This document shows, piece by piece, positions 1,530 through 25,225 of a stretch of DNA of 35,279 nt (within the stretch, counting starts at the first letter, position 1; each line of letters starts with the position of its first letter). Position numbers and translations under genes: made by a program. Origin of the DNA: a virus; the IMG/VR virus record IMGVR_UViG_3300009488_001619, positions 1-35,279 of that record; one strand, written 5' to 3'. Under the pieces are notes generated by a model, which did not search any database, had not been told where the DNA came from, and was given only the letters and a program-made list of their open reading frames with translations.

Positions 1530-1538
1530 TTGGAGATT

Positions 1539-1545
1539 TATAAAG
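1539..1545 (+). promoter_or_regulatory. TATAAAG, late-promoter-like motif
   Basis: TATAAAG lies 35 nt upstream of the ATG at 1574, the same spacing as similar motifs before other structural genes (9348, 15322, 26544). It resembles the T4 late promoter element TATAAATA. This copy lacks the GAACA prefix found at some of the others. Confidence 0.35.
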
Positions 1546-1573
1546 GGAACAAATCTAAAAGAGAGGAATATTA

Positions 1574-4500
1574 ATGGCAATACCTCCTGGTCAATATTAT
1601 CTATGTTATGATGGAACCTCTACTGACTACATAGAGATTATAAATGTATACAATACATTGATCGGGAACCCTTCTTCTAGAGATGATAAACGAACTAAGT
1701 ACTTTCAATTTTTTGATTTATTCACAAGACACAGATCAAGAAATTTTCTAGTAAATAGGGACTCAGCTGGTCAAGTCCTTAATCTAGTAAACACAGATCT
1801 AAAGTCTGCATTAGATGACTTATACAATAAAACTGAGAAAGATGAACTCCTATTATCACTTCTGAAAAATCTTAGAGACTGGGTACGAGCAAACATTGGT
1901 TATGGTTATCTAGATCTTGCCTTCTTATTCCTTGGTCATGAAGCGATTCTTAAAGAATTAGGAAATGTAATAGACTTCTTCAAACCTTACAGAGCGAGAA
2001 TTCTTCCATTAGAAATGATTGAGTTTAAGAATAGATTAATGAACTCAGTTCGACTTGACGACAGTCTTATTCTAGATATTGGACAAGACATCTATGACTG
2101 GGTAACGGCTAATAGTAATCCTTGTTGTCCAGATCCTTTATTATTATGTCCAGACTCAACCGCAGCATCGCAATGGTACTCACGAATAACTTACGATTGT
2201 GGGTCTTACTATGACATTGGTTGTTGTCTTGATATAAGACCGCTTGAGATTTATATTCAACAGATTTTTCATGACCATTATATTTGTAGAGATGCTTCGG
2301 TTACTAGTAGAGACTCAACATCTACTTACAATATTATGGTTCATAGTAGATATGAGATGTACGACCCGTCACATTTAACTGACTCTACTAGTTGCGTAAA
2401 AATTGCGTACCAAGATGGTGGTGTAGTTAATTATGATGGTGGGTGGTCGTTTGACTGTCCTTATGCAAGCGATATATGTGAAATTACCGTGACTGTTCCA
2501 ACGACAACAACTACTACTACAACTACAAGTACTTCGAGTACGTCTACTTCTTCGACTACAACCACTTCAACTACTAGCACGACTTCGACTTCTACTACAT
2601 CAACTACAACCACTTCAACTACGAGCACTACAACAAGCACTACAACAACAGAGTTCTTAGTTGGTTGTGGAATATTAAGACCAGATCCTGGAGCAGATGA
2701 TGAGAGATTATATCCACCTTGCTGGATTTCTACTACATCGACTAGTACTACTACATCGACTTCAACAAGTACTTCTACAAGTACAAGTACATCTACGTCA
2801 ACTAGTACTTCAACTTCTACAACAACTACATCTACAAGTACTTCAACTTCTACAACAACTACATCTACGTCAACTAGTACGACAACAACATCCACAAGTA
2901 CTTCCACATCTACGAGTACATCAACTACTACAAGTACTACAACTTCATTAGCAATTTCAGAGACTTTAATTTCTAATGATACAAACGATTGGGGAGATAT
3001 AAATGGCGTACTTGGTTCGTGTATAGTTTATTGTACTTATGGACAAGCAACTCCACTTGGACCTGTATTTGGAAAATCAATAACTTGTGGAGATAGTTGG
3101 AATACTACGTTATTACCAACTGCTGTCAATCCTGGTGTTATTGATGATATAAGAACAAGAATACATGCTATAGACCAAAATAACATAGTTATGGCCTATT
3201 CAGAAAATATTACAGATATAAAACTATATTTCGCTAAAAGTATTGATGGTGGTTCTACATGGAGCGCTACTGACACAACTAGTTGGATAGAAGTTACAAC
3301 AATAAGTGAAATTCCAGGTCAAATACATGTAGTTCCATTTGATATATTTGCTTCAGATATTAACACAATTTTTGTAGCTGCAAATATAGGAAATCAAATA
3401 ACATTAGGCAAGTCTGTAGACAGTGGAGTAAATTGGGACTTCAATACGATCTATAACTCTGAAGCTGATCATATTAGAATTCAAGCTATAGATTCTACTG
3501 CAGTATATGTTGCATGGAGGTGGCAGTCTACGGGTTACTTCAGTAAAACAACTGATGGAACAAATTGGACTACAATTACAGTATTAGAAGCTTTCAAATG
3601 TGATAAAATCGACTTCTATGCTTTAGATGAAAATAATTTATATTATGCCACACAGTCTGAAGATAATGAGAGAATTTCTGTTTTCATTTCAAATAATGCT
3701 GGTGATAACTGGACTGAAAAAGTTGTTGAAACATCACCAGGACAAGAACCAGAAGGAGAAAATCAAGTCGGAGTTTGGGCAGCTGATACTAGTAATATCT
3801 TTGTATTCTATAGTTATGAAGAAGGTGCGCAACTAAAATTCGCTTATACTCAAGACGGTGGAGATTCTTGGCGTAATGAAGTAATACTTAACAATCCTGT
3901 TATATCCACATTTATACATGGATGTGACATTAATAATGTATTTGGACTTGCTTTAAGAGATTCAAATTATATTTATAGTTTTACAATCGGTGGAACATGT
4001 CCAGAAACAACTACAAGTTCAACAACTACTACTAGTACTACTACAACGACAAGTACGAGTACTTCTACTACGAGTACATCTACTTCGACAACATCTACGT
4101 CTACTTCTACAAGTACTACATCTACATCTACATCGATATCTACTTCGACAACGTCTACTTCGACTTCTACGACAAGTACATCTACTTCGACAACGTCTAC
4201 GTCGACTTCGACAACGTCTACGTCGACTTCTACTACAAGTACATCTACTTCGACAACGTCTACGTCGACTTCTACTACTAGTACGAGTACATCGACAACA
4301 TCTACGTCAACTTCGACAACGTCTACGTCGACTTCTACTACAAGTACATCAACTTCGACAACATCTACTTCTGCTTCAACGAGTACAAGTACATCGACAT
4401 CTACTAGTACCACAACAACAACTACAACAACAACGACGTCGACTAGTACTACTAGTGGAAGTACTACTTGTACTGAAGAATGGATTTCATGTCATGACAA

Positions 4501-4834
4501 CACATATTGGACAGGTACTCAGAATGTAAGCTGGAATGCGGGAGAAAGCAGATGGGAGACTTCTGATATTGCTAAGTTAGAAGTTACAGGAACATGGGCA
4601 AACGGTTTCAGACCAACTAAGTTTCGTATGACATTTACTGAAGTTGCAAGTATTGACGAGCTCCAACTACTAGACTCAGATTCGCCAGCAAATCTTATAG
4701 TCTTTGTGTACGACTATACGTCGTTAGAGGAACGAAATTGTACATTTACTGAGCCCTATAATATTGCAGAACTAAGAATAAACGATACTACTCCCATTTA
4801 TATAACAAACATAGAATTCTTTGCATGTCCCTAA
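1574..4834 (+). CDS. Large multidomain adhesin: head domain, Ser/Thr linkers, BNR/Asp-box propeller, C-terminal domain
   Basis: This 1086-residue protein is preceded by GAGAGG before ATG. Residues 1-308 form a Cys-containing globular domain, perhaps the virion anchor. Residues 309-360 and 386-457 are Ser/Thr tracts separated by a short Cys segment (VGCGILRPDPG). Residues 459-809 contain six Asp-box-like motifs (for example SIDGGSTW, SVDSGVNW, TQDGGDSW), the hallmark of BNR/sialidase-type beta-propellers. Residues 811-965 are a long Ser/Thr tract with a seven-residue period. The last 120 residues form a compact Cys-containing domain, probably the receptor-facing tip. No sialidase catalytic set was identified, so glycan or surface binding is likelier than hydrolysis. 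Neighbours are another adhesin upstream and an adhesin fragment downstream. A tail-fibre role is inferred from architecture. Confidence 0.8.
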   Translation: MAIPPGQYYLCYDGTSTDYIEIINVYNTLIGNPSSRDDKRTKYFQFFDLFTRHRSRNFLVNRDSAGQVLNLVNTDLKSALDDLYNKTEKDELLLSLLKNLRDWVRANIGYGYLDLAFLFLGHEAILKELGNVIDFFKPYRARILPLEMIEFKNRLMNSVRLDDSLILDIGQDIYDWVTANSNPCCPDPLLLCPDSTAASQWYSRITYDCGSYYDIGCCLDIRPLEIYIQQIFHDHYICRDASVTSRDSTSTYNIMVHSRYEMYDPSHLTDSTSCVKIAYQDGGVVNYDGGWSFDCPYASDICEITVTVPTTTTTTTTTSTSSTSTSSTTTTSTTSTTSTSTTSTTTTSTTSTTTSTTTTEFLVGCGILRPDPGADDERLYPPCWISTTSTSTTTSTSTSTSTSTSTSTSTSTSTSTTTTSTSTSTSTTTTSTSTSTTTTSTSTSTSTSTSTTTSTTTSLAISETLISNDTNDWGDINGVLGSCIVYCTYGQATPLGPVFGKSITCGDSWNTTLLPTAVNPGVIDDIRTRIHAIDQNNIVMAYSENITDIKLYFAKSIDGGSTWSATDTTSWIEVTTISEIPGQIHVVPFDIFASDINTIFVAANIGNQITLGKSVDSGVNWDFNTIYNSEADHIRIQAIDSTAVYVAWRWQSTGYFSKTTDGTNWTTITVLEAFKCDKIDFYALDENNLYYATQSEDNERISVFISNNAGDNWTEKVVETSPGQEPEGENQVGVWAADTSNIFVFYSYEEGAQLKFAYTQDGGDSWRNEVILNNPVISTFIHGCDINNVFGLALRDSNYIYSFTIGGTCPETTTSSTTTTSTTTTTSTSTSTTSTSTSTTSTSTSTSTTSTSTSISTSTTSTSTSTTSTSTSTTSTSTSTTSTSTSTTSTSTSTTSTSTSTTSTSTSTTSTSTSTTSTSTSTTSTSTSTTSTSASTSTSTSTSTSTTTTTTTTTTSTSTTSGSTTCTEEWISCHDNTYWTGTQNVSWNAGESRWETSDIAKLEVTGTWANGFRPTKFRMTFTEVASIDELQLLDSDSPANLIVFVYDYTSLEERNCTFTEPYNIAELRINDTTPIYITNIEFFACP
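2501..2650 (+). repeat. Ser/Thr-coding low-complexity tract 3
   Basis: This linker joins the N-terminal domain of the 1086-residue adhesin to a short Cys-containing segment. It is nearly pure Thr and Ser. Confidence 0.85.
2729..2945 (+). repeat. Ser/Thr-coding low-complexity tract 4
   Basis: This linker precedes the Asp-box propeller. Its synonymous codons are mixed, so the selected property is the amino acid composition rather than the DNA sequence. Confidence 0.85.
4007..4468 (+). repeat. Long Ser/Thr tract with 21-nt tandem periodicity
   Basis: From about 4080 to 4375 the protein repeats TTSTSTS, a seven-residue period, and the DNA repeats a 21-nt unit of the type tcgacaacgtctacgtcgac plus one base. 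Several copies are identical or nearly so. Recent slippage or unequal exchange is likely. The tract links the propeller to the C-terminal domain. Confidence 0.85.
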
Positions 4835-4850
4835 TGAAACAATCTAGACA

Positions 4851-4867
4851 AAACTATTTGGTAGTTT
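4851..4867 (+). terminator. Weak hairpin after the large adhesin
   Basis: AAACTA and TAGTTT can pair across a 5-nt loop and are followed by ATTTAAAT. The stem has only six AT-rich pairs, so terminator function is uncertain. Confidence 0.25.
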
Positions 4868-4892
4868 ATTTAAATATAATATCAAGGAGAAA

Positions 4893-4936
4893 CTTAGAAC
4901 AAAACTAAAATAGGAGGTTTTAGAAGTAGTGGCAAA
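4893..4936 (+). repeat. 44-nt direct repeat, copy A
   Basis: Identical to 6301-6344. It contains the AGGAGG ribosome binding site and GTG start of the adhesin fragment. Its first part spells Leu-Glu-Gln-Asn-stop, which in copy B is the real C-terminus of the TPR-glycosyltransferase. In copy A no glycosyltransferase precedes it, so this looks like a remnant of a duplicated gene junction. Confidence 0.85.
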
Positions 4937-5180
4937 CCCTGTTATAAGTGGAATCGTAAGAGACAAAGACGGAAACATCATTACGGGTGTTCAATGTAAC
5001 ATCGACGTATATGATAAAGATGACCGTTCTCTTCGAATACTTGCCATCAAAACTGATGGAACTCTATGGGCTTGGGGATATATAACATACCGTTCTTCTC
5101 CAGTACAAGTAGGTTCATTAACTAACTGGGTAGATGTAGCTGCTGGAAGAGATCATACAATTGCTATCCAGATTCAGTAA
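4929..5180 (+). CDS. Short chimeric adhesin remnant: shared head domain start fused to one partial RCC1 blade
   Basis: This 83-residue product starts at GTG after AGGAGG. Residues 1-37 match the start of the head domain in the genes at 6337 and 7813 (ISGIVRDKDGN, CNIDVYDKDDRSLRI). The sequence then switches abruptly near base 5040 to an RCC1-type blade (LAIKTDGTLWAWG, RSSPVQVG), as in the 7813 gene, with about ten residues of the blade missing. The rest of the head, the Ser/Thr linker and the other blades are absent. It is best read as an internal-deletion product of a full adhesin gene. It keeps its ribosome binding site and an intact frame, so it may still be translated. Confidence 0.7.
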   Translation: MANPVISGIVRDKDGNIITGVQCNIDVYDKDDRSLRILAIKTDGTLWAWGYITYRSSPVQVGSLTNWVDVAAGRDHTIAIQIQ

Positions 5181-5197
5181 AACATAGGAGATAAAAA

Positions 5198-6316
5198 ATG
5201 TCAACAATCCGTGAAATGTTAGAAGTAGCAGGAAGTTTAGAAAAAGCTGAGAAGATGGCACAAAAATTTATTAAAGAAAAAGGACCTGAATATCTACTTG
5301 ACCTTCAACTTCTATATTCTATGCAGGGAAAAGTAAAGAAATCTTGGGAAGTTTGTCAAGAAGCAACTAAAGTATTTCCTGACGATGATCGGGTTGCGTA
5401 TGACAGAGGTTGGCATATTATGATGCAAGGAGATTTGCTTGGAGGATTTACTCTTATGAACAGAGGTAGAAACGTTGAAACCTGGGGGAATGCTCCTATT
5501 GGAAGTATCAGACCAATATGGAACGGAGAAGATATTAAGGGAAAGCATATACTTTTTAATTGTGAGGCAGGTTTCGGAGATGAAATAACTTTTATAAGAT
5601 TTGCAAAAGAAATTACTAAATTAGGAGCCCATGTAATTGTTGTATGTAGTCCAGATCTTGCTCCATTGTTTGCTAGAATTCCAGAAATGTCTGCTGTTGT
5701 ACAAAGAGAGACAGCTTTAGGAGTTTATCATGATTACTGGGTTCCTTCTATGTTAGCACCAGTAGTTTTGAAAACACAATTTAGTGACTTATCTGGAAAA
5801 CCATATTTAGAACCAAACTTAAAACATGTAAAGAAGTTTAACATAGTTATAAATAGTAATAAACTAAAAGTTGGAATTAGATGGTTAGGAAGAGAAGGAG
5901 AAGATTATATAAATAGAATCTTTTCAAAAGAATTATTTTTTGATGCAGTTACTCAAGACCATATCCAGTTATATTCTTTACAGAAAGATCATAACGAAGA
6001 AAGTTTACCTAAACATATTGTTGACTTAGAACCGATGCTTGAAACTTGGGAAGATACTGCAGGGGCAATCGCTAATCTTGATCTTGTAGTATCATCTTGT
6101 ACTTCAGTAGCTCATCTAGCAGCAGCAATGGGGAAACCAACTTGGGTTATACCTCCACTGATGATGTATTATGTTTGGTCTTACCCTGGAAACAAGTCTC
6201 CTTGGTATGACTCTATTACTTTGTTTAGACAAGAAAAGTATGACGAATGGGAACAACCTTTTAACAAAATGAAAGAAGAACTAAATAGGGTTAGAACGTC
6301 CTTAGAACAAAACTAA
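5198..6316 (+). CDS. TPR-containing glycosyltransferase, GT9/heptosyltransferase-like
   Basis: This 372-residue protein has an AGGAG site before ATG. Residues 1-95 are helical with TPR-like spacing (KAEKMAQKFIKEKG, VCQEATKVFPDDDRVAYDRG). Residues about 110-360 resemble GT-B enzymes of the family 9/TPR class: a glycine-rich N-terminal motif (CEAGFGDEITFIRFA), VGIRWLG at the start of the second Rossmann half, and a C-terminal donor-site segment (SSCTSVAHLAAAMGKPTWV). Such enzymes transfer sugars from nucleotide-sugar donors. It lies between two adhesin genes with Ser/Thr-rich linkers, so a virion adhesin is a plausible acceptor, though host surface glycan cannot be excluded. Its last codons overlap the 44-nt repeat. 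Confidence 0.78.
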   Translation: MSTIREMLEVAGSLEKAEKMAQKFIKEKGPEYLLDLQLLYSMQGKVKKSWEVCQEATKVFPDDDRVAYDRGWHIMMQGDLLGGFTLMNRGRNVETWGNAPIGSIRPIWNGEDIKGKHILFNCEAGFGDEITFIRFAKEITKLGAHVIVVCSPDLAPLFARIPEMSAVVQRETALGVYHDYWVPSMLAPVVLKTQFSDLSGKPYLEPNLKHVKKFNIVINSNKLKVGIRWLGREGEDYINRIFSKELFFDAVTQDHIQLYSLQKDHNEESLPKHIVDLEPMLETWEDTAGAIANLDLVVSSCTSVAHLAAAMGKPTWVIPPLMMYYVWSYPGNKSPWYDSITLFRQEKYDEWEQPFNKMKEELNRVRTSLEQN

Positions 6317-6344
6317 AATAGGAGGTTTTAGAAGTAGTGGCAAA
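6301..6344 (+). repeat. 44-nt direct repeat, copy B
   Basis: Identical to 4893-4936. Here it encodes the last residues and stop of the glycosyltransferase, then AGGAGG and the GTG start of the next adhesin. Similarity continues at lower identity into the head domain, to about 6448. Confidence 0.85.
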
Positions 6345-7512
6345 TCCTGTAATAAGTGGAATCGTAAGAGATAGAAACAGAAATGTGATAACAGGAGTAC
6401 AATGTAATATTGACGTATATGATAAAGATGACCGTTCTCTTCGAATAGGAAGTAGTAAATCAAAAGCTGTTAATGGTGAGTGGTACACTGAACTTCCTGG
6501 GATTCCTCATAATACAAAAGTTCTGACTATGTTCTCCTTACAAAACAGTCAGTTCATAGCTGGTGCTGAGTTTATGCAAGCTACAACTACTACAAGTACT
6601 TCTACTTCTACAACAACAAGTACTTCTACTAGCACTACAACAACGACTACATCTACGTCAACTAGTACATCGACAACGACTACATCTACTTCAACTAGTA
6701 CATCGACAACAAGCACTACTAGTACATCGACAACAAGTACTATTAGTACATCGACAACAATTACTACTAGTTCCTCTACTACTTCTATATCTACAACAAG
6801 TACTACTAGTACTTCAACAACTAGTGGTTCTACTACCTCAGCTAATGGTGAGGCAGAGTGTGACTGTGATACTCGTATATTAGCATTTGATGATGAGAGT
6901 ACACCTGACACTATCAATCAGGATGATTCAATAACTATATTTCTTAATGATGGATGTCCGCCTTATGAATGGTCTGTAGAAGGAACTGGTTTTTCGATGA
7001 CTCTTGCCCAAACACAAGATAAAAATAATACACTTAACGCTAGTCCTACAGCTTGTGGACCTGCTAGTATTACTATAACAGATCACTGTGAGAGAACAGT
7101 CTATGCTTATATACGATGTACAACTGGTAGCTGGACAGTTAGTTATGTAGAATATTTGCACCAACCTTGGACAGTAGGTTATTGTCTTTTCGATAATTTA
7201 AATTGTTCTGGTTGTGATGGCGAACCATTAACTTACGAAGAGATTTATGGAAAGTATAAATTTGTACTGGAGGGACCTATTTGTCTTGCTTCTTACCAAC
7301 CATCCTGTGGGGGTTCAGGAAGTTGTCCCAACGATTTTGAATGGAAACAGACTAATGGAGATCCACCTACAGCAATTCCCCATGCTGGAGACCCCAATCA
7401 ATGTCATGTTGCCTATCATGGTGGTACATGTACTTGTGACCCCCCTAGTTGTTATGATCCTGTCAAAGGATGTATATATCGGTATGCAAAAAGATATGAT
7501 TGGATATGTTAG
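6337..7512 (+). CDS. Modular adhesin: shared head domain, Ser/Thr linker, Cys-rich C-terminal domain
   Basis: This 391-residue protein starts at GTG after AGGAGG. Residues 1-82 are the shared head (ISGIVRDRNRN, GVQCNIDVYDKDDRSLRI, NGEWYTELPG), which looks like a small beta-sandwich of carboxypeptidase-regulatory or Ig-like type. Residues 83-168 are a Ser/Thr linker. Residues 169-391 have many Cys (CDCDT, CPPYEWSVEG, CSGCDGEP, CTCDPPSCYDP). The first part has an Ig-like pattern (PPYEW then ASITITDHC). The Cys content suggests disulfides or metal binding in the mature particle. It uses the same ribosome binding site sequence as the remnant at 4929 and lies just after a glycosyltransferase. Receptor binding is inferred. 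Confidence 0.75.
   Translation: MANPVISGIVRDRNRNVITGVQCNIDVYDKDDRSLRIGSSKSKAVNGEWYTELPGIPHNTKVLTMFSLQNSQFIAGAEFMQATTTTSTSTSTTTSTSTSTTTTTTSTSTSTSTTTTSTSTSTSTTSTTSTSTTSTISTSTTITTSSSTTSISTTSTTSTSTTSGSTTSANGEAECDCDTRILAFDDESTPDTINQDDSITIFLNDGCPPYEWSVEGTGFSMTLAQTQDKNNTLNASPTACGPASITITDHCERTVYAYIRCTTGSWTVSYVEYLHQPWTVGYCLFDNLNCSGCDGEPLTYEEIYGKYKFVLEGPICLASYQPSCGGSGSCPNDFEWKQTNGDPPTAIPHAGDPNQCHVAYHGGTCTCDPPSCYDPVKGCIYRYAKRYDWIC
6583..6840 (+). repeat. Ser/Thr-coding low-complexity tract 6
   Basis: Linker between the head and the Cys-rich domain, again with mixed Thr and Ser codons and a few Ile substitutions. Confidence 0.85.
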
Positions 7513-7812: not shown

Positions 7813-9312
7813 ATGGCTAAAATAAACGGAATTGTGAGAGACAAAAACGGAGATCCTATAGTAGGTGTCCAATGTAATATTGACGTTTATTATAAGGACA
7901 ACCGGAATGTGCGAATTGTAAGTAGTACATCAAGTGTTGTTGATGGTAGTTGGGAAATTGATTTACCTGGTTTCTCTTATGGAAATAAAGTTATTGTTTT
8001 GTATTCCTATGAAGGAAATTACGGTGGAGATATTGATATTGCTGGTGCTGAGTTCTTATCTGCTTATGTAACTACAACAAGTACTTCATCGACAAGTACA
8101 ACTACTTCTACAAGTACGAGTACATCTACTAGTACCTCAACTTCAACTAGTACTACTTCAACATCGACTTCTACTTCTACTAGTACAAGTACGTCAACCA
8201 GTACAAGTACTTCTGCAAGTACTACTATATCAACAACTACTGCTGGTTTAGAAAGCTTTACTTCATGGACTTGGGGAAGAAATGATTATGGAGAGATTGA
8301 CCATGGAGATATTACTCCCAGATCTAGTCCTACACAAGTAGGAGCACTTACAGATTGGAACATACTTTCTGCTGGTTGGAATTGCTGTCATGCTGTAAAA
8401 ACTGACAGAACTTTATGGGCTTGGGGAGAGAATTCTCTTGGAAAACTGGGACTCGGAGATACAGTTCATAGGTCAAGTCCAGTCCAAGTAGGAGCTCTAA
8501 CTGATTGGAGTAAAGTTTTTCCTGGAGGTTATCACTCTTCAGCTATAAAAACTAATGGAACGCTATGGACTTGGGGACTTAATACTTATGGGTGTTTGGG
8601 ACTCGGAGATACAGTTCATAGGTCAAGTCCAGTTCAAGTAGGAGCTCTAACTAATTGGAGCAAGCTCAGCCTTGGGTTTTTCCACTCTTTAGCTATAAAA
8701 ACAAATGGAACTTTGTGGTCTTGGGGAAGAAGTAACCAAGGACAACTTGGTCAAGGTGACGCCACTGACAGGTCAAATCCAACTCAAGTGGGATCCGACA
8801 CTAACTGGTCTGAAATTGCTACTGGAAGCTATTATAGTTTAGCAGTAAAAGCAGACGGAACTTTATGGGCTTGGGGATACAATACTAATGGAGAACTTGG
8901 TCTTGGAGATATAATCCATATATCAAGTCCAGTGCAAGTAGGAGCACTTACAAACTGGAGTAAAGTTTATGCTGGTGCTAACTCCTCATATGCTATAAAA
9001 ACTGACGGAACTTTATGGGCTTGGGGGCTTAATAATTATGGTCAACTAGGTCAAGGTGACATTACGAAACAGTCAAGTCCAGTACAAGTAGGTGCTTTAA
9101 CTAACTGGGACAAAATTGCTGCAGGAGAGTACCACGTAATAGCAGTAAAAACAGACAGTACCTTATGGGCTTGGGGACATAATATTAATGGAGAACTTGG
9201 TCTTGGAGATGTAAACCCTAGATCAAGTCCAGTGCAAGTAGGAGCACTTACAAATTGGAGTGATGTAAGTAGTCGTACTTACTTTTCTTCTGCTATACAA
9301 TCTTTACCTTAA
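7813..9312 (+). CDS. Modular adhesin: shared head domain, Ser/Thr linker, seven-bladed RCC1 propeller
   Basis: This 499-residue protein has an ATG start and a weak upstream GAGAG. Residues 1-86 are the shared head (INGIVRDKNGD, GVQCNIDVYYKDNRN). Residues 87-142 are a Ser/Thr linker. From about residue 150 to the end there are seven consecutive repeats of about 50 residues with the RCC1 signature: WAWG, GQLGLGD or similar, SSPVQVGALTNW, then AIKTDGTL. Seven is the blade number of RCC1/BLIP-II propellers, so the domain looks complete. RCC1-type propellers occur in bacterial and phage surface proteins and usually bind proteins or glycans. The blades are similar at DNA level, consistent with repeat homogenisation. 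An adhesin or receptor-binding role is inferred. Confidence 0.85.
   Translation: MAKINGIVRDKNGDPIVGVQCNIDVYYKDNRNVRIVSSTSSVVDGSWEIDLPGFSYGNKVIVLYSYEGNYGGDIDIAGAEFLSAYVTTTSTSSTSTTTSTSTSTSTSTSTSTSTTSTSTSTSTSTSTSTSTSTSASTTISTTTAGLESFTSWTWGRNDYGEIDHGDITPRSSPTQVGALTDWNILSAGWNCCHAVKTDRTLWAWGENSLGKLGLGDTVHRSSPVQVGALTDWSKVFPGGYHSSAIKTNGTLWTWGLNTYGCLGLGDTVHRSSPVQVGALTNWSKLSLGFFHSLAIKTNGTLWSWGRSNQGQLGQGDATDRSNPTQVGSDTNWSEIATGSYYSLAVKADGTLWAWGYNTNGELGLGDIIHISSPVQVGALTNWSKVYAGANSSYAIKTDGTLWAWGLNNYGQLGQGDITKQSSPVQVGALTNWDKIAAGEYHVIAVKTDSTLWAWGHNINGELGLGDVNPRSSPVQVGALTNWSDVSSRTYFSSAIQSLP
8071..8240 (+). repeat. Ser/Thr-coding low-complexity tract 7
   Basis: Linker between the shared head domain and the RCC1 propeller. 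Confidence 0.85.
8259..9309 (+). repeat. Seven tandem RCC1-coding units of about 150 bp
   Basis: Each unit encodes one blade. Adjacent units share long near-identical stretches, for example ggactcggagatacagttca in the second and third units, showing recent duplication or gene conversion. Confidence 0.8.
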
Positions 9313-17385: not shown

Positions 17386-17742
17386 TTATTTCTTAGTCTC
17401 TTCTATTATAATGTCAAGTTTATCTTTCAAGTTATTTATAACGTTAATAATACATCCAACATCAGGACCACCTTCAAACTCACAAACAACTAAATTCAAC
17501 TCTTTCAACATAATACCCAGAAAATCAAAATAAGAAGTACCTACCTCAAATTCGTGAGTAAAACCCATACATTTTAACTCTGTAAAACGTTCAGATAATT
17601 CTTCTATTTCAATATCGTCAGGTAGATTAATCCCAGCTTGTTCTCGTATTGAAAGACATTTTTCCAAAGACAATTTAGATGGGATTAGTACTACATAATT
17701 AGTCGACGAACTATTGGTTATAAAATCTGTTTTAACTTTCAT
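17386..17742 (-). CDS. FVTNSSS-family protein 1
   Basis: This 118-residue protein begins MKVKTDFITNSSSTNYVVLI. The first 19 residues match the starts of the four genes upstream on this strand, while the rest is unrelated in sequence and rich in Glu and Cys (a hydrophobic C-terminus, GCIINVINNLKDKLDIII). GAGGA precedes ATG. It is the last gene of the island, before the sheath terminator. The N-terminal motif recurs, as far as I recall, at the start of many uncharacterised phage and bacterial proteins, without an established function. It does not look like a classical signal peptide: a basic start is present but no hydrophobic core. Confidence 0.75.
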   Translation of the reverse strand: MKVKTDFITNSSSTNYVVLIPSKLSLEKCLSIREQAGINLPDDIEIEELSERFTELKCMGFTHEFEVGTSYFDFLGIMLKELNLVVCEFEGGPDVGCIINVINNLKDKLDIIIEETKK

Positions 17743-17745
17743 TCT

Positions 17746-18108
17746 TTATCCTCGCTCTATTACTTCAATCCATATTGACTTGAAACCAAAAGTTTCTGAT
17801 AATTCTTTTTGTCGAATCTTAGAATCTATAATAATATGTCGCATATAGTGGGGAATATCCTCATAATTATTGTACATACTAGTAGATTCGGTTATTTTAA
17901 ATATACCTTCTTCTTTTTCTTCAATCGTTTGTGGATTGTAAAATCTTAAAGTAGAACATTCTCCAGTGTATTTATACTCTTGTATATATTCTTCTAAATA
18001 ACGGTTAAAACTATCTTGAAAACTATTTAAGTTCTTATCTGTTGATGCAAAATACAATATAAAACTTGCTGAACTACTATTAGTCACAAAATCTGTTTTA
18101 AATTTCAT
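17746..18108 (-). CDS. FVTNSSS-family protein 2
   Basis: This 120-residue protein begins MKFKTDFVTNSSSASFILYF. AGGGAA precedes ATG. The body is acidic, with LEEYIQEYKYTGE and a C-terminal IDSKIRQKELSETFGFKSIWI segment. Only the first 19 residues resemble the neighbours. It is followed after 3 nt by family member 1, so the two should be co-translated. Confidence 0.75.
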   Translation of the reverse strand: MKFKTDFVTNSSSASFILYFASTDKNLNSFQDSFNRYLEEYIQEYKYTGECSTLRFYNPQTIEEKEEGIFKITESTSMYNNYEDIPHYMRHIIIDSKIRQKELSETFGFKSIWIEVIERG

Positions 18109-18119
18109 TCTAATATTCC

Positions 18120-18626
18120 CTAATGGTGACTAATTTGGAGGTGTGGAAGTTTTCTAAAAATTTCTCCATGTTCCATATCTGACCAAAAAGCTCCACCTTC
18201 ATCAGAATAACTAAAGAAGTAAATTACTCGTCCAATATTTTTTTTTATAAATTGCACAGCGAGTTCTTTCGCTATTTTCCTTCGTTCACGGTCTTGTATT
18301 CTATAAGCTTCTTCGATAGGCATTCCACCTCTTTTAACAAGGTTGTCAGCATAATCCCATCCAAGATCACCTTCGAAATGCCCAGACTGAATCTCTTCGG
18401 TAAGTTTGTCAGTAACACCCCCTAATACTGGTTCAAAGTCAAACTCAAAATAACTCTCTTTTAATATCAAAGGTTCCTGCGTTTGTATATCTTCCAAAAC
18501 TGCTCTTGCTTGTTCAGTATACATTATGTATTTCTTAACATCTTCAAATGACTCCACTACTTTATCCCAGGCAACTATAAAACTTGAAGAACTTGAGTTT
18601 GTTATAAAATCTGTTTTTGTCTTCAT
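18120..18626 (-). CDS. FVTNSSS-family protein 3
   Basis: This 168-residue protein begins MKTKTDFITNSSSSSFIVAW, the closest to the family consensus. The body has VESFEDVKKYIMYTEQAR and DLGWDYADNLVKRGGMPIEEA, then a strand-rich region (IGRVIYFFSYSDEGG) and a His-containing end. It may be the member that best shows the ancestral form. No body family is recognised. Confidence 0.78.
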   Translation of the reverse strand: MKTKTDFITNSSSSSFIVAWDKVVESFEDVKKYIMYTEQARAVLEDIQTQEPLILKESYFEFDFEPVLGGVTDKLTEEIQSGHFEGDLGWDYADNLVKRGGMPIEEAYRIQDRERRKIAKELAVQFIKKNIGRVIYFFSYSDEGGAFWSDMEHGEIFRKLPHLQISHH

Positions 18627-18632
18627 TACGAT

Positions 18633-19010
18633 CTAACACATCCGACTTCCAAAAAATAACTTAAAGTCTCTTGCCCCAAAAGTCGTTTTAAGATGTCTCT
18701 TATTTTCGCTAATTATTCCTAGGTCTTCTTCACCACTTTCTTCACAATTAGAATCAAATACGAAGATTGGTACTCCAACTAGAATAGAATATTCATCGGG
18801 TGCACCCGCTTCTTCACTAACTAAGAAAAAATTACTACTGAGTTGTTTCTCTATTTCATTTATTTCTTCATCTGTTTCATTCTGAAAAACTAGTTTTAGT
18901 ATATCGCTATATGACATCTCACATGCAACTTCGTCTGTTTTAACTTTAAATCCTAATAATATAAAATTGCAAGTTGAACTATTTGTTACGAAACTTGTTT
19001 TTATCTTCAC
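18633..19010 (-). CDS. FVTNSSS-family protein 4
   Basis: This 125-residue protein starts at GTG, preceded by AAGGAG, and overlaps the upstream gene stop by 3 nt. It begins MKIKTSFVTNSSTCNFILLG, where one Ser is Thr and a Cys follows. The body is acidic with a short Cys-containing VFDSNCEESGEEDLG segment and ends FFGSRMC. Confidence 0.75.
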   Translation of the reverse strand: MKIKTSFVTNSSTCNFILLGFKVKTDEVACEMSYSDILKLVFQNETDEEINEIEKQLSSNFFLVSEEAGAPDEYSILVGVPIFVFDSNCEESGEEDLGIISENKRHLKTTFGARDFKLFFGSRMC

Positions 19011-19534
19011 TTTTTTAAACTCCTTTTGATTTTTTCTTTTTCTTTTTCTTTTTCCTCTTTTATCGCTTCCAGTTCTTTTTCAAATTGTTTACTTTGTTCT
19101 CGTTTAAACTGAAGTCTTGTTTTTATTTTGAAATCTGTTAAGTCTAGAAACAAGTCTGATTCCCTATTTTCATCATAATAATCATCTTCACCAAGATAAC
19201 GTTTTATCATCAATCCTTCATCTTCCCAGTTTTCATTTCTACATGTATCTACTCTAAGACTACGACCTCTAGCAACGTCAATCCAGTCACCATCATAAAT
19301 AAAAGTTTCGTAATTACAAGTCCATGGAATAACAATATTTCCGTCAAAATCAGGATTATCTTTTAACCATTTTTTAACTATCATCTCATGTGGATGTGGT
19401 GCATCTCTTGGACCCTCTTTCCAGTTCTCAAAAAATATATCTAACATCTTCCTTGCCGCGTCAATCGGTTTTCTATAGTCCACAATGTATGCAGTACTAG
19501 AACTGTTAGTTACAAAATCATGTTTTATCTTCAA
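19007..19534 (-). CDS. FVTNSSS-family protein 5
   Basis: This 175-residue protein starts at TTG, preceded by AAGGAGGAACG. It begins MKIKHDFVTNSSSTAYIVDY. The body has Trp, Asp and Tyr-rich stretches (FIYDGDWIDVARGRS, YLGEDDYYDENRES) and a highly charged Glu/Lys coiled-coil C-terminus (KEEKEKEKEKIKRSLKK). It is the first of the five in transcription order, directly after the zinc-ribbon and radical SAM genes. Confidence 0.75.
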   Translation of the reverse strand: MKIKHDFVTNSSSTAYIVDYRKPIDAARKMLDIFFENWKEGPRDAPHPHEMIVKKWLKDNPDFDGNIVIPWTCNYETFIYDGDWIDVARGRSLRVDTCRNENWEDEGLMIKRYLGEDDYYDENRESDLFLDLTDFKIKTRLQFKREQSKQFEKELEAIKEEKEKEKEKIKRSLKK

Positions 19535-19568: not shown

Positions 19569-19733
19569 TTATATTCGGACGGCTCGAATACCCCTATTTT
19601 GACTTCTCCTATTCTTTTTACAAGAGGGGCAGTACACTCGTACCACCCCCCTACCTTTCCATTCATATTCCATTCTTGCCATATATGTTTTTCGACAACC
19701 AGGACAAATCGCCTTAACTTTAAATTTACTCAT
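19569..19733 (-). CDS. Small zinc-ribbon protein
   Basis: I set the start at 19733 because GGAGAG lies about eight bases before that ATG, while the in-frame upstream ATG has no site. The product is 54 residues with two CxxC pairs (CPGCRKTYMARMEY, then VYCPSCKKNRRS), a standard zinc-ribbon layout, and a very basic C-terminus that could bind nucleic acid. It overlaps the upstream membrane gene by 8 nt. Its partner is unknown. Confidence 0.75.
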   Translation of the reverse strand: MSKFKVKAICPGCRKTYMARMEYEWKGRGVVRVYCPSCKKNRRSQNRGIRAVRI

Positions 19734-19908
19734 TTTTTTTACTCTCCAGTTCATTTGGTTTTCGAGTCATCATTAAACAAAACAAAACAAAAATAGCAAC
19801 TATCAAATTGCTAATAGAGGAGAGAAACAAACTAAGAGGAACATTAATTATGAATGTAAACCACAAAAACATTCGAATATCTCTTCTCATTTCTTCTTTT
19901 GCTTCCAT
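19726..19908 (-). CDS. Small membrane protein
   Basis: I set the start at 19908: AGGAGGTGGATT directly precedes this ATG, which is seven codons after the first in-frame start. The 60-residue protein has a charged N-terminus (MEAKEEMRRDIRM), hydrophobic segments (FLWFTFIINVPLSLFL and NLIVAIFVLFCLMM) and a polar tail. Two short helices or one hairpin in the membrane are likely. Its function is unknown. Confidence 0.65.
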   Translation of the reverse strand: MEAKEEMRRDIRMFLWFTFIINVPLSLFLSSISNLIVAIFVLFCLMMTRKPNELESKKNE

Positions 19909-19918
19909 AATCCACCTC

Positions 19919-20986
19919 CTATAATTCATAAGGACATATATCTGGATGTTGTTTTAAAAGTTCTCTACATCTTATAAAAGGATCTGATCTATTCCATGCG
20001 TCCTCAATTGATTTATATTCAAGAGATACACTATGTTGTTTATAATTAGCAAAAGAACATGGAACTAATCTCATATCTGGAGTAATATAAACAGACATCC
20101 TTCCAGACTCACACGTATCAATTGACATTTCTTGCTGTGGTGAAAACTTAGCAAACTTTTTTACTTTGTTCACCATACAACTATCAAGTCCCACCTTAAA
20201 CTTACATTTCGGTTCTTTAATTAGTTTACTAAACTGACGTATTTGACTAATTTTTGGTACCCAGTATAGAAGCTCCTTACCTCTACCTTGTGGTTTAAAC
20301 AAAAGGAAAATAATTGCATTAAGTTTTTCTAAATCACCTTTACCATTCCATATATCTATACCCTTTAGTATCTTTACTGCAAGTGGGTGAGATACAGAAG
20401 AATATATAAAGTGAATATTGGTTTTCATTCCATTGTCTATAAATCTTCTTAACGAATTATATGTAAAGTCTTGTCCATAGTCAGATACAGCTACAGCACC
20501 GCAAAGTTTTGATATCTCTATTTGTTTATCTGTTAAGTTAATTCCACTAGTAGTATAGTTCGGAACTACATTATTACTCCTAGCATACTCAACAATCTTT
20601 TCAAAATCCTCATGAAGATTTGGATCTCCTCTTCCTCCTAATGCTATTTGATTTGTATGATGTTTACACTCATCTACAATTCTTTTAAAATCTTCAAATT
20701 TCATATTTGGTTCTTGATTATCTCCCTGATAGCAAAAATCACATCTGTTCTTACAATGTCCCATTATCCCACAATCAATCATTGACGGCATATCAAGAGA
20801 AAATGGATCAGGGTGACCCTTAATACCTCGTAAGGCTTCAAACCCTGTCAGTGTGTTAAATAACAATTCATAGCGATCATTTTTAAAGCATTTATCAAAA
20901 TAAGCACCTATTTCTATTCCAGTACGTTTGTCTTTCAATGTTCTAAATTTCATATTTGACAGATCAGAATCGAACCTTCTACCCAT
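19919..20986 (-). CDS. Radical SAM protein with SPASM/twitch-like C-terminal Cys
   Basis: The 355-residue product has C78, C82 and C85 (CKNRCDFCYQG), the CxxxCxxC that binds the SAM-cleaving 4Fe-4S cluster, and GGRGDP shortly after as the GGE-like SAM-binding strand. The C-terminal third has CKFKVGLDSC, CESGRMSVYITPDMRLVPC and RCRELLKQHPDIC, resembling SPASM or twitch domains that hold auxiliary clusters. Such enzymes often modify peptides or proteins. The start is ambiguous: starts at 21016 (TTG) and 21004 (ATG) also exist. I chose 20986 because it gives the 8-nt overlap (ATGNNNTAR pattern) seen at other junctions in this operon. Neighbours are a 182-residue protein upstream, and a membrane protein, zinc ribbon and the FVTNSSS family downstream. 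It does not resemble QueE-type enzymes. Its substrate is unknown. Confidence 0.83.
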   Translation of the reverse strand: MGRRFDSDLSNMKFRTLKDKRTGIEIGAYFDKCFKNDRYELLFNTLTGFEALRGIKGHPDPFSLDMPSMIDCGIMGHCKNRCDFCYQGDNQEPNMKFEDFKRIVDECKHHTNQIALGGRGDPNLHEDFEKIVEYARSNNVVPNYTTSGINLTDKQIEISKLCGAVAVSDYGQDFTYNSLRRFIDNGMKTNIHFIYSSVSHPLAVKILKGIDIWNGKGDLEKLNAIIFLLFKPQGRGKELLYWVPKISQIRQFSKLIKEPKCKFKVGLDSCMVNKVKKFAKFSPQQEMSIDTCESGRMSVYITPDMRLVPCSFANYKQHSVSLEYKSIEDAWNRSDPFIRCRELLKQHPDICPYEL

Positions 20987-21527
20987 CTTTATGAATTGTT
21001 CCATTTTCTTTACCAAACTTTGTATAAACTACACCATCGATCGTTCTTATTTGTCTAAATTTCCCCATTTTTAAAAGTAAAGGAGCATTTTTATGTAAGG
21101 ACTTCTGATCTTCTGGCATTGAATTTTCCCATTCTTTTTCACTAATAACCTCGTCAGAAACCAAAATAATAAATTTGTTCTCCTTATCTGGGTCATAGTC
21201 ATTTTGAACAATCAGTAGAGTCTTGTAGAATGTTTTTCGAAGGACTTGTCGCAAACATCTTCCACGAAACCGATTATGATAGTCTCCCCAACAAAAACCA
21301 TTGTCTTCTAATATTGATTCTATTTTATCGGCGTTCTCCCGGTTTTGTTCTACTATTTCATTAAGTTCATCAAAATGTTCGATTAAGAGTTTTAATATAG
21401 GTCTCCATTTTTTACCTACAGCTTTTAAGACCTTGTTTTTATTTTCTTCGTCTTCTAAATTGAAGATGATTTCTCGCCAGTAGTTATTTTTTGGAACTAT
21501 AACAAATGTATCTACTAAGTTTCCCAT
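20979..21527 (-). CDS. Hypothetical protein, coupled to radical SAM gene
   Basis: This 182-residue protein has MGNLVDTFVIVPKNNYWREI at its N-terminus and a charged helical middle (LLIEHFDELNEIVEQNRENADKI). A Trp/Arg/Cys-containing segment (NGFCWGDYHNRFRGRCL) and a strand-rich end follow. It overlaps the upstream gene by 13 nt and the radical SAM gene by 8 nt (with the start used here), so all three are probably translated together. It may be an accessory protein of the radical SAM enzyme. No family is recognised. Confidence 0.65.
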   Translation of the reverse strand: MGNLVDTFVIVPKNNYWREIIFNLEDEENKNKVLKAVGKKWRPILKLLIEHFDELNEIVEQNRENADKIESILEDNGFCWGDYHNRFRGRCLRQVLRKTFYKTLLIVQNDYDPDKENKFIILVSDEVISEKEWENSMPEDQKSLHKNAPLLLKMGKFRQIRTIDGVVYTKFGKENGTIHKDG

Positions 21528-22143: not shown

Positions 22144-23199
22144 TCACACCTCCTTGGTTAAATATGATTTTACTAATTTAATACATAGTTCATCTACCAA
22201 TTGCTCATTTGGTGATTCTGGTAGAGGACTAATTTCCTTAAGTTCTCTAAGTTGACTGGTAAGAACATCCGTAAGCGATATTAACTCATCATAAGTAACA
22301 TTCCCATTTAAAATCCATCGTAAGAGACCTACGTCTGGTCGAGGAAAAGTAATATGACCAGTTCCAACTATCTCTTCTCCTTCTGATAACAGACGATATA
22401 AATGGGCAGCATGTTTTGTATCATATCCAAACTTTTCTTCAAGTTTTGCTCTAGCTGGATGTCTGTTCTTTTTCCAGTTTTGATATGAATTCCATTCTCT
22501 CATAGCGTTCATATAAGCCTTTTCTCTCTCAAGAGCTTCAAGAAAATTGTCACTCACTGGAACAAGAGTTTTGATTGCTTTATAATCTAATGCTTTCAAA
22601 TTTTGCGTTAAAGCAATAAAAGCAACCGTTTCTTCCATCTTATCTAATTGTTCTCTAAGACCATGAAACTTTCCAATTTGTTGTAAGTATAATGATAATA
22701 ACTTATTAAAAGCTCCAATCTGGTCTTTTGGTATTAATGAACGATTATCTGGAAGACCATACTTCTCACGAGTTGGTTGTTCTTTGGGAGGATTTAGAAG
22801 CCAGTTTCTATGTCGTTTAATACGTTTTAGTTGTTCATGTGCATAACCTATAAATGAGTCAGTACATAATCTAGAAACAATATGTTCTTCCATATGGATT
22901 ATCGCAATCCATTCTTTTGTATGATGTTTCCAGAAAGATTCGGGAATAAATAGATACTCAATAATTGACGGGTTGTTAACTAGCAACATCTTCATAAAAC
23001 TACATATATCATAAAGCGTGGTGCTTTTTTCTTTATCTTCATAGTCTCGTAAATAAATCTTATTTAAGAAACCATAAAAGTACTCCTCACTTGGTATAAA
23101 AACTCCTCCTATATCAACATCTGAAGTTTCTATATCAGTTCCATATAAATTGCTTCCGACTATTGTTTTAAATATCAACTTAAAATCGTTTGGTATCAT
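22144..23199 (-). CDS. RlaP-type nucleotidyltransferase (DNA polymerase beta superfamily)
   Basis: I set the start at 23199: GGGAGGATAGTA precedes this ATG, whereas the longer frame's start lacks a site. The 351-residue protein has the minimal nucleotidyltransferase motif near its N-terminus (IVGSNLYGTDIETSDVDIGG: GS, then D-x-D), followed by YDICSFMKMLLVNNPSIIEYL, the pattern of the RlaP/predicted-nucleotidyltransferase family (PF10127). Related genes lie near RNA repair genes in bacteria and are common in large phages. It overlaps the upstream gene by 20 nt. The substrate is not established; tRNA or RNA end repair is inferred from family and from the CCA enzyme nearby. Confidence 0.8.
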   Translation of the reverse strand: MIPNDFKLIFKTIVGSNLYGTDIETSDVDIGGVFIPSEEYFYGFLNKIYLRDYEDKEKSTTLYDICSFMKMLLVNNPSIIEYLFIPESFWKHHTKEWIAIIHMEEHIVSRLCTDSFIGYAHEQLKRIKRHRNWLLNPPKEQPTREKYGLPDNRSLIPKDQIGAFNKLLSLYLQQIGKFHGLREQLDKMEETVAFIALTQNLKALDYKAIKTLVPVSDNFLEALEREKAYMNAMREWNSYQNWKKNRHPARAKLEEKFGYDTKHAAHLYRLLSEGEEIVGTGHITFPRPDVGLLRWILNGNVTYDELISLTDVLTSQLRELKEISPLPESPNEQLVDELCIKLVKSYLTKEV

Positions 23200-23557
23200 T
23201 ACTATCCTCCCGTAATTTGTTAAGTAATTTCTTCTTTGCTTCACTTACCAATTCTGAAACAATGTCAGAGCTAGTTGTTAGGAATTTAAAAGTTAATCCA
23301 TCTAACACTAAAGAAGTATATAGTTTCCTCTCAAAATCCCACTGATTGAGACCTTCCTTTTTACAAAATTCTCCTATAGTTTTTGTTAATATGTGAGGGA
23401 TTTCTAAAGAAACTGGAGTTTCTTCTTTTTCACCAAACCATAGACTTGGCCCTACATCAACGATCGCCTTTGCTACGGCATATATCATACTTCTTTCGAC
23501 TTCAGAATATCCAAGAGGATTTCTCAGTTTTTCAAGTATCTCTTCTAGTTGGTTCAT
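23180..23557 (-). CDS. Hypothetical protein, tandem paralogue of the next upstream gene
   Basis: This 125-residue protein is clearly homologous to the gene at 23554-23898: both have NPLGYSE near the start, EKxxTPVSLEIPH in the middle and QWDFExKLYTxLxLxGLTFxFL later. This copy has a longer Lys-rich C-terminus (EAKKKLLNKLREDSNDTKRF). The two genes overlap by 4 nt (ATGA type). No family is recognised; conservation of the middle motif suggests a small folded domain. Confidence 0.7.
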   Translation of the reverse strand: MNQLEEILEKLRNPLGYSEVERSMIYAVAKAIVDVGPSLWFGEKEETPVSLEIPHILTKTIGEFCKKEGLNQWDFERKLYTSLVLDGLTFKFLTTSSDIVSELVSEAKKKLLNKLREDSNDTKRF

Positions 23558-23898
23558 AATTTATACTCCTCTACTTTTTCATTTGCTTCTTTATTTAGTA
23601 AATCTCGCAGAACCTTAGATTTCCCTAACAAGAAAATAAATGTTAATCCTTCTAGTATTAAATGAGTATACAACTTAGTTTCGAAATCCCACTGGACAAG
23701 TTTCTTTTCTCTACACATTATGTTAATTTCTTCTATTATCTCATGAGGAATCTCTAAACTAACTGGAGTCTTTTCTTTTTCACCAGTCCATACTTCTGGA
23801 CCTGACATTAACATCCTTCCTAACATTTCAAATATTATGTCTTTAACCTCTTCAGAATATCCAAGTGGATTTTTGTATCTTTCAATTATATCTTCCAT
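23554..23898 (-). CDS. Hypothetical protein, tandem paralogue
   Basis: This 114-residue protein is homologous to its downstream neighbour (see 23180-23557), with conserved NPLGYSE, TPVSLEIPH and QWDFETKLYT. It overlaps the CCA-adding enzyme gene by 17 nt. Divergence outside the shared motifs shows an old duplication. Its function is unknown. Confidence 0.7.
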   Translation of the reverse strand: MEDIIERYKNPLGYSEEVKDIIFEMLGRMLMSGPEVWTGEKEKTPVSLEIPHEIIEEINIMCREKKLVQWDFETKLYTHLILEGLTFIFLLGKSKVLRDLLNKEANEKVEEYKL

Positions 23899-25225
23899 TA
23901 TTATACTCCTCTATTAATTTAGTTAACTTCTCTTTTGTATTTAGTTCGGGTTCGTCAGTAACTTTATCTAAAAGAAAACTCAGAATCTTTCCAATTATTG
24001 GACTAGGACTAAAGCCAGTTATTTCTATTATATCATTCCCCTTCAAAACTAAATCTTTAAATCTATTTGGTGGTTTCTCGCTTATTACTTCTTCTATTGA
24101 ACCCACCAAAGTCCTTGCTTCTTGTATACTATATGGGTGTCGTTTTAAGTTTCCTTTTTTGTCTGCTAATATCATACGAAGTAGGTCTTTGTATTCTATA
24201 TTAGACTCATTTAATTCTCGTAGAACTCGTCTAATAGCCTTCTTATGGTTAGATCCAATATCTCGCATATGTAGATATATTAGTTTAGAAATGTAGTTTA
24301 CTTCTATATTTGAGAACTTCAAAGCACCTAATTCGTCTTTCACTAAATTGGACCCTGCTTCAACATGTCCCATAAATGTTAAGTCATTTGTTTTCGGATT
24401 TATTTTACATGCAACTGGCTTTCCTATATCATGTAGATAAGTTGCTAGTTTTAAAAGTGGATAACGAACTGAAATACAATCACCACATATCATACTATGT
24501 TCAAATATATCTTCTAAATGATGTGGTCCATGTGGGTGGTCAATACAGTCTTCTAAAGAAGGAAAAATGTATTGTAAAGCTCGAATCTGATGTAGAGTTC
24601 TAAAAAAATTAGAAGCTTTTCTTATTTGCATTGTTTTTAGAACTTCTAATCGGACTCGTTCTGGCGAAACAAAAGTCTCTATATATTCAGAATGACTAAT
24701 TAAAGCATCCCATGAGTCCTTTTCGATAATTCCATCTAACTTCGTAACAAACCTACATGCCCTTATCATCCGGTTTGGATCTTCAAATATTCTTTCACCT
24801 GGTTCTCCAACGAATCTTATTATCTTATGTTCTAAATCAAAAAGTCCATTATGTAGATCAATTACTTCTTTTTTGTTAACATCATAAGCCATTGCGTTAA
24901 TAGTAAAGTCTCGACGAGATAAATCTTCTTCGAGAGTCACTGGGAAAGTAACTTCTACATCTTTGTTATTCCAACCATGATATCGGTCGCGTCTATATGT
25001 AGCAACTTCAGTTCCATTAACTATCACAACTCCAAACTTTTTTCCAAGAGGTACTACAGTTTCATTTTTAAAGATCTCCTCAACCTCATCGGGAAGAGCA
25101 GATGTAACTATATCAATATCATGTGGGTTTTTATTACCTAGAATAAAATCTCTAACTGCTCCACCAACTATGTAAGCTTCATATCCATAAGTTTGTAGTC
25201 TTTCAATTATCGGGTGTGATCTCAA
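23882..25225 (-). CDS. cca: CCA-adding enzyme / tRNA nucleotidyltransferase with HD domain
   Basis: This 447-residue protein carries the class II nucleotidyltransferase set: GG21-22 with VRD (VGGAVRDFILG), catalytic D36 and D38 (HDIDI), RRDFTINAMAYD near residue 105, and EDPNRMIRACRF near 145. VSPERVRLEVLKTM follows. An HD domain is present (HGPHHLEDIFEHSM and LATYLHDIGKP), as in many bacterial CCA enzymes. It should add or repair the 3' CCA of tRNAs using CTP and ATP. The length is normal for bacterial CCA enzymes with HD domains. It overlaps the neighbouring genes on both sides, by 17 nt downstream and 4 nt upstream. A phage copy suggests tRNA repair during infection; no tRNA gene is visible in this window. 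Confidence 0.9.
   Translation of the reverse strand: MRSHPIIERLQTYGYEAYIVGGAVRDFILGNKNPHDIDIVTSALPDEVEEIFKNETVVPLGKKFGVVIVNGTEVATYRRDRYHGWNNKDVEVTFPVTLEEDLSRRDFTINAMAYDVNKKEVIDLHNGLFDLEHKIIRFVGEPGERIFEDPNRMIRACRFVTKLDGIIEKDSWDALISHSEYIETFVSPERVRLEVLKTMQIRKASNFFRTLHQIRALQYIFPSLEDCIDHPHGPHHLEDIFEHSMICGDCISVRYPLLKLATYLHDIGKPVACKINPKTNDLTFMGHVEAGSNLVKDELGALKFSNIEVNYISKLIYLHMRDIGSNHKKAIRRVLRELNESNIEYKDLLRMILADKKGNLKRHPYSIQEARTLVGSIEEVISEKPPNRFKDLVLKGNDIIEITGFSPSPIIGKILSFLLDKVTDEPELNTKEKLTKLIEEYNNGRYN

Follow-up and report, generated by a model that had tools for sequence, protein, structure and literature searches.

Which function can be carried by a short N-terminal sequence that five neighbouring phage genes have in common, when little else in their products is alike? 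The question is posed by a stretch of viral DNA, hereafter the window, which comprises a whole IMG/VR record (35,279 bases) and, judging from the tail sheath-like and baseplate-like genes seen in it, looks like a piece of a larger phage. Most known substrates of radical-SAM peptide maturases are short natural-product precursors, and in addition there are a few protein maturases that serve a single substrate. From comparison of viral and cellular sequences, we consider it quite likely that the common start of these proteins acts as a modular tag for a single dedicated radical-SAM/SPASM enzyme, serving as its recognition site and probable site of modification; one enzyme family would then appear to act on many unrelated full-size proteins by way of a fixed address at the N-terminus. 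The tag-enzyme pair is spread across bacteria, archaea and large phages; it gathers anonymous phage genes, some of them in cultured T4-like phages, under one testable biochemical question; and in cells its chemistry may be tied to operons that resemble anti-phage systems.

Five tandem genes in the window

The five tandem minus-strand open reading frames described in an earlier, sequence-only reading of this DNA are present (Table 1); their products (118–175 aa) share the N-terminal consensus MKxKxDF[VI]TNSS[ST]xx[FY][IV]x and then diverge. M1, K2, K4, F7, T9, N10, S11 and S12 are invariant across P1–P5, and the bodies that follow form five separate BLAST clusters. P5 overlaps the start of P4 by four bases, and on the far side of the cassette a converging sheath-like gene stops at 17339.

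Table 1. Motif cassette of the window and the features next to it
Feature	Position	Strand	Description
Motif protein P1	17386..17742	-	118 aa; ATG start; MKVKTDFITNSSSTNYVV followed by an 'IPxxFxLxxxLSxRE' body
Motif protein P2	17746..18108	-	120 aa; ATG start; MKFKTDFVTNSSSASFIL; body cluster 6
Motif protein P3	18120..18626	-	168 aa; ATG start; MKTKTDFITNSSSSSFIV ... LQISHH; PHROG 7397 family
Motif protein P4	18633..19010	-	125 aa; GTG start; MKIKTSFVTNSSTCNFIL
Motif protein P5	19007..19534	-	175 aa; TTG start; MKIKHDFVTNSSSTAYIV; body cluster 22
Zinc-ribbon-like protein	19569..19754	-	61 aa; between enzyme and P5; weak zinc-ribbon matches; putative system member
Hydrophobic protein	19726..19929	-	67 aa; between enzyme and P5; putative system member
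Radical-SAM/SPASM protein	19919..21016	-	365 aa from TTG, true start uncertain; C88-x3-C92-x2-C95; short C-terminus
Intrinsic terminator-like stem-loop	17348..17382	-	strong; 15 bp; directly after P1, at the end of the cassette

Searches of Pfam, NCBIfam and the PDB with the five proteins or with the bare motif gave no significant match. P3 matches PHROG 7397 (E 9e-13) in two stretches, the better one C-terminal, and its family is present in T4-like phages too; it is the only one of the five to match over the protein, P2 and P5 matching weakly and at the N-terminus only, while the bare motif aligns with the first 20 positions. PHROG 7397 (function unknown) covers a single body family, and it names neither the tag module nor the enzyme. 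The bare 21-mer had no match in phages by tblastn, where the low-complexity filter possibly masks SSSSS, and a literature search for the peptide string found nothing; the RaK2 paper (PMC3622015), which surfaced under 'conserved N-terminal motif', is about tail spikes and was set aside. Nor did Pfam, NCBIfam, PDB and literature searches return anything that explains the motif-enzyme pair.

A segment fixed at residue 1 of many different proteins

In order to follow the segment beyond the window, IMG/VR and the GTDB genomes were scanned at the DNA level with the pattern K-x-[KR etc.]-x-D-F-V-T-N-(S/T)3-x-x-F, a start codon not being demanded, and these two scans retrieved at least 119 and at least 118 stretches, respectively. 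A position at residue 1, on which the sequence-only reading depended, was found exactly in 447 of the 451 matches listed from viral contigs and cellular genomes, the same number having a start codon (ATG, GTG or TTG) six residues before F7; the four exceptions comprise two random matches, one with an inserted residue and one without a standard start. A common N-terminal stretch was also seen as described, although it ends at about residue 18 rather than 19: among the matches listed, information content is 1.8–4.3 bits at most of positions 1–18 and 0.4–0.6 bits from 19 onwards, the step between residues 18 and 19 being from 1.8 to 0.6 bits. The motif is not a chance product, because the 39-base degenerate pattern of the N-terminus, read backward, had no match in 593 genomes. 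N-termini from viral loci fetched through the enzyme are less tied to the original pattern (N10 was demanded, and T or S at position 9), and these also carry T9 (78 of 79), S11 (78 of 79), S12 (77 of 79), S13 (76 of 79) and K2 (72 of 79).

The motif is conserved as protein. All six Ser codons occur at positions 11–13, in agreement with the earlier remark on synonymous codons, and when homologues are compared, non-synonymous differences affect 11% of motif codons versus 40% of body codons, synonymous differences being equally frequent in both (40% and 42%).

Among the matches listed there are at least 402 distinct motif proteins of 45 aa or more, with bodies of <100 to >900 aa that fall into 97 single-linkage clusters, 56 of them singletons. 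That the bodies are unrelated, as had been proposed, holds for most of this diversity, which includes a BRCT domain (E 2e-10), a PQQ-type beta-propeller (E 7e-9) and coiled bodies; it does not hold throughout, since profile comparison merges a few clusters of remote relatives and the strand-helix order beta1-helices-beta2-alpha-beta3 recurs in two modelled families. The tag can be regarded as a module because P1-type bodies occur also without it: remote homologues of the P1 body lack the motif (hhalign 97%, E 5e-11), and within single phages such untagged bodies are encoded beside tagged genes of the P3 type. What is conserved is a stretch of protein, strictly N-terminal, borne by many different bodies and absent from some homologous ones.

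The radical-SAM/SPASM partner

Neighbouring open reading frames were clustered in 241 loci, most of them fetched by the motif alone, and the inspection of gene neighbours that the sequence-only reading had suggested yielded one outstanding family, radical-SAM/SPASM, present in 162 of the 241 loci among the matches listed (69 viral, 93 cellular). The next commonest neighbour families are almost wholly limited, among the matches listed, to viral loci of the window's kind. The nearest motif gene lies on the enzyme's strand in 148 of 149 cases with a median gap of 9 bp (again among the matches listed), and in the cellular loci listed a motif gene with the enzyme is the sole constant feature of otherwise differing neighbourhoods. 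No third constant gene was seen among the loci listed, and no protease, exporter or transporter, or discrete RRE protein was consistently linked in them. Viral stretches hold up to six motif genes each among the matches listed. Ten motif genes with different body families lie on one contig of a cellular assembly (L232), possibly a misbinned phage contig. In some T4-like phages (L010, L011, L012) a vWA protein of about 740 aa is encoded two genes downstream of a motif gene; vWA as a downstream partner was dropped as a candidate, being found only in some contexts.

The enzyme of the window has the Cys cluster motif and matches Pfam Radical_SAM (PF04055, E 3e-9), its SPASM part being shortened (PF13186, E 0.008, under the cut-off). 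Cellular and some viral members of the family carry auxiliary-cluster cysteines, CxxC....C.GGC...C (PF13186 E 4e-5 in L144), and in many members CX3CX2C is replaced by CX7CX6C (GHCxHGxSGLCxKxGxxCYQ) with a longer loop (alignment A2; for instance L144:1100-2155 and L104:5102-6202); some members in this alignment show yet another Cys spacing. The nearest solved sequences by profile are the peptide maturases SuiB (E 1e-13), SkfB and PqqE, anSME standing further down the list with a weak match in the SPASM part, and no NCBIfam equivalog, the triceptide maturase families included, scored above cut-off for the enzyme. An RRE/PqqD-like domain had no Pfam match in the two enzymes scanned, which is not decisive, because PqqE-like systems also lack an internal RRE.

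Co-occurrence at the level of whole genomes was examined in 593 genomes, namely 298 from one family (that of L196, a Lachnospiraceae MAG) and 295 from one order (that of L195, Sunxiuqinia, Bacteroidota), in which the enzyme was detected with profile A2 at E<1e-50. The enzyme is present in 11 and a genuine motif in 10, all among those 11 (Fisher p 8e-21, or 3e-17 without the two centre genomes, values that overstate independence because related genomes were treated as independent). One genome that at first seemed to have the enzyme only (G169) carries a motif variant, MKVCLDYVTNSSSSSFIF; the eleventh, motif-less genome (G103; locus L272) has a deletion through the enzyme gene, which is fused to sequence like the end of a motif protein. 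Pattern matches in three further genomes (G236, G374, G383) were rejected as chance, having the wrong sequence, an in-frame stop or a position inside other genes.

Viral records that bear the motif (33–248 kb) contain the enzyme somewhere (E<1e-100) in 22 of 25, with none detected in three, and where it was missing from the stretch fetched from a cellular genome it was located elsewhere in 11 of 16, and not detected in five of 16. In a GenBank phage collection of 50,697 records, the P3-type motif protein occurs in 175 and the enzyme in 172; compared by genus counts, the two sets cover the same genera in nearly equal numbers, all or nearly all being T4-like phages of enterobacteria, with RB43 as one that has both genes. 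Klebsiella phage Miro has its motif gene and enzyme at about 71 and 91 kb, and with some 20 kb between the two genes the linkage is not just one of neighbourhood; a second motif gene lies near the first. An nrdC.11-like nucleotidyltransferase is also found near a motif gene of Miro.

Starting from the enzyme, a motif gene was found in the flanks of 51 of 74 new viral loci. No motif gene was found in the other 23, all of them fragments of 5–41 kb that may be incomplete, and these constitute the main gap in the case. Two loci (L293, L294) have the enzyme gene followed by an untagged P1-type body, with no tagged gene in the fragment. Tail and enzyme also vary together: in viral loci among the matches listed, those with K4 have mostly the short CX3CX2C enzyme (55:2) and those with R4 the long expanded-loop enzyme (51:0), and distances between enzymes follow those between tails (Mantel r 0.46 against a permutation maximum of 0.14, among the matches listed), a pattern that is partly due to shared ancestry, yet is as a direct reading of the tail would predict. 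Motif and enzyme are tied together by adjacent genes, by presence in the same genomes and by residue 4, which varies with enzyme subtype.

What the tag may be for

The sequence-only reading had named three possible roles of a recognition tag: to be read by an enzyme that processes or modifies the protein, to direct the protein to a structure, or to exert co-translational control. Strong support now exists for the first of these, given that the motif is accompanied almost everywhere by a dedicated radical-SAM/SPASM enzyme. For structural targeting no support was seen, and codon usage speaks against control via the mRNA sequence. The original observation is confirmed, and sequence comparison supports one specific candidate for the enzyme.

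We infer that the tag is chemically modified. The enzyme would bind the exposed tail (about residues 1–13; in two models residues 13–18 belong to the first strand of the body) and would modify it by means of a 5'-deoxyadenosyl radical, most probably within [FY]-[VI]-T-N-S-S-S, where residues hardly vary; a single writer would in this way act on an entire group of small accessory proteins. The near-invariant F/Y7, T9, N10 and S11–S13 are possible targets of known radical-SAM/SPASM chemistries, and the motif has no invariant Cys, so that a sactionine or ranthionine is not to be sought there. A first candidate would be a C-C cross-link joining F7 to T9 or N10, of the kind seen in triceptides, where the 3-CyFE maturases XncB and OscB join Phe C4 to C-beta of the Asn two residues on, and MscB joins it to C-beta of the Ser two residues on (PMC11002830). 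The motif is similar in its invariant aromatic residue 7 followed by T9, N10 and serines, whereas the enzyme falls outside the known 3-CyFE maturase families (no NCBIfam equivalog above cut-off). A second candidate would be oxidation of Ser to formylglycine, as carried out by anSME, a SPASM enzyme whose target is a Ser (or Cys) in a full-size protein (PMC8326336). Here too a SPASM enzyme, with a weak sequence match in that part, has full-size protein partners with Ser; in contrast, anSME serves one enzyme family at an internal active site, and here the shared sequence is N-terminal on unrelated bodies, reads TNSSS rather than the sulfatase motif C/S-x-P/A-x-R, and no sulfatase Pfam match was found in the five window proteins and ten other tagged bodies scanned. 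Since no protease or exporter is linked, the likely outcome is a modified protein that stays in the cell, not a peptide that is released.

RiPP leaders are typically N-terminal, with a fixed sequence ahead of variable parts. The resemblance to RaS-RiPP systems such as SuiB/streptide, SkfB and PqqE/PqqA, in which likewise a SPASM enzyme gene lies beside and co-occurs with genes for proteins of conserved, leader-like N-terminus, makes it natural to ask whether the motif works as a leader by which the enzyme is brought to residues elsewhere in the body. The motif-enzyme linkage, the N-terminal position and the fixed sequence ahead of variable bodies would all suit a classic leader and core, but we find this unlikely: the bodies, <100 to >900 aa and including BRCT and beta-propeller domains, have no common core motif, near-invariance of T9, N10 and S11–S13 appears stricter than leader binding usually demands, and neither a protease nor a transporter is linked in the loci listed. 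The partners also differ from RaS-RiPP precursors in being 100–900 aa long, folded, diverse and probably intracellular, instead of short with a cleaved and exported core, and no RRE, discrete PqqD-like protein (two enzymes scanned), protease or exporter was detected, an RRE/PqqD-like domain being a feature of many radical-SAM peptide maturases (PMC8326336).

The same linkage data would fit motif proteins that are docking partners or regulators in the manner of PqqD-like adaptors, the tail binding the enzyme while another molecule is modified; partner proteins can be needed, as PqqD is with PqqE (PMC8326336), and models show the bodies as folded domains. Such a role seems rather improbable, given that in one phage a single enzyme faces up to six or more tagged proteins with unrelated bodies, which fits substrates better, and that the loci listed hold no third constant gene.

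AlphaFold2 models were made for P3 and for a cellular body family unrelated to it, and both have a mean pLDDT of 90, residues 1–10 standing at about 57 and at 52, respectively; a low pLDDT of the tail may mean only that it makes no contacts within the monomer. The first strand begins at residue 13 in both (beta1, residues 13–20), and with the most conserved residues predicted to lie outside the fold, the models fit recognition by another molecule. As no fold match reached E<=0.001 (both models against the PDB, P3 also against BFVD), the bodies give no functional hint. The shared order beta1-helices-beta2-alpha-beta3 and the remote relationship of some bodies are what could be said for one diverged ordinary family with a conserved first strand and loop, which we regard as highly improbable: residues 1–12 are outside the fold in both models and yet the most conserved, P1-type bodies exist without them, and the same tail is found on BRCT, PQQ-propeller and other bodies. 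Clustering does not support a single family, only the two models hinting at one. That the tag localises or packages proteins into the virion or some other structure, with an incidental enzyme link, is scarcely credible, for although the motif genes of the window adjoin sheath and baseplate-like genes, the tag is also found in bacterial and archaeal chromosomes, within operons lacking phage structural genes, is not among the tail genes of T4-like phages, and co-occurs with the enzyme far too tightly.

With the tag read as the address of a modifying enzyme, its cellular settings suggest that the pair was recruited into conflict systems, which is not evidence for the copies in the window, where no STAND/NACHT NTPase lies next to the motif cassette. 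An Avs2-like NACHT/STAND NTPase (Avs2 E 1e-29) stands beside the cassette in 21 cellular loci (e.g. L136, L142, L224, L191), in an operon of conserved order, the NTPase and then a protein of about 135 aa, with the motif protein and the enzyme in 20 of the 21; at four of these loci a metallo-beta-lactamase-fold protein like LmuA/Avs1a precedes. Its gene content makes it possible that this operon is an undescribed defence system. In three loci (L134, L180, L223), genes for a MoxR-type AAA ATPase and a DUF2201 (vWA-like) protein adjoin a beta-propeller-type motif protein. For FtsH-type MoxR-vWA ternary systems, a radical-SAM effector has been proposed to modify a separately encoded peptide (Kaur et al. 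2020, PMC7159879). Those systems are alike in pairing a radical-SAM enzyme with a peptide from a separate gene in a conflict setting, and differ in their other neighbours, the N-terminal motif not being named in the parts of that paper on which this comparison draws (PMC7159879).

A wider reading, which we hold tentatively and at somewhat short of even chances, is that of a portable modification system that none of the sources searched describes, in which an 18-residue N-terminal tag for almost any intracellular body and its cognate radical-SAM writer were recruited into conflict systems, and a group or cross-link on F-x-T-N-S-S-S would be the common functional element of otherwise unrelated proteins. 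If true, it would be common to phages, bacteria and archaea and would operate in Avs2-like STAND operons and MoxR-vWA clusters.

Elsewhere in the window, several plus-strand proteins at 243-7512 contain long runs of only Ser and Thr (STSTTSTSTS), and the protein at 7813-9312 has RCC1-like repeats. An RlaP-type nucleotidyltransferase is encoded at 22144-23244 (PF10127 E 4e-14), and a probable CCA-adding-type nucleotidyltransferase with an HD-like part, assigned by eye, at 23882-25225.
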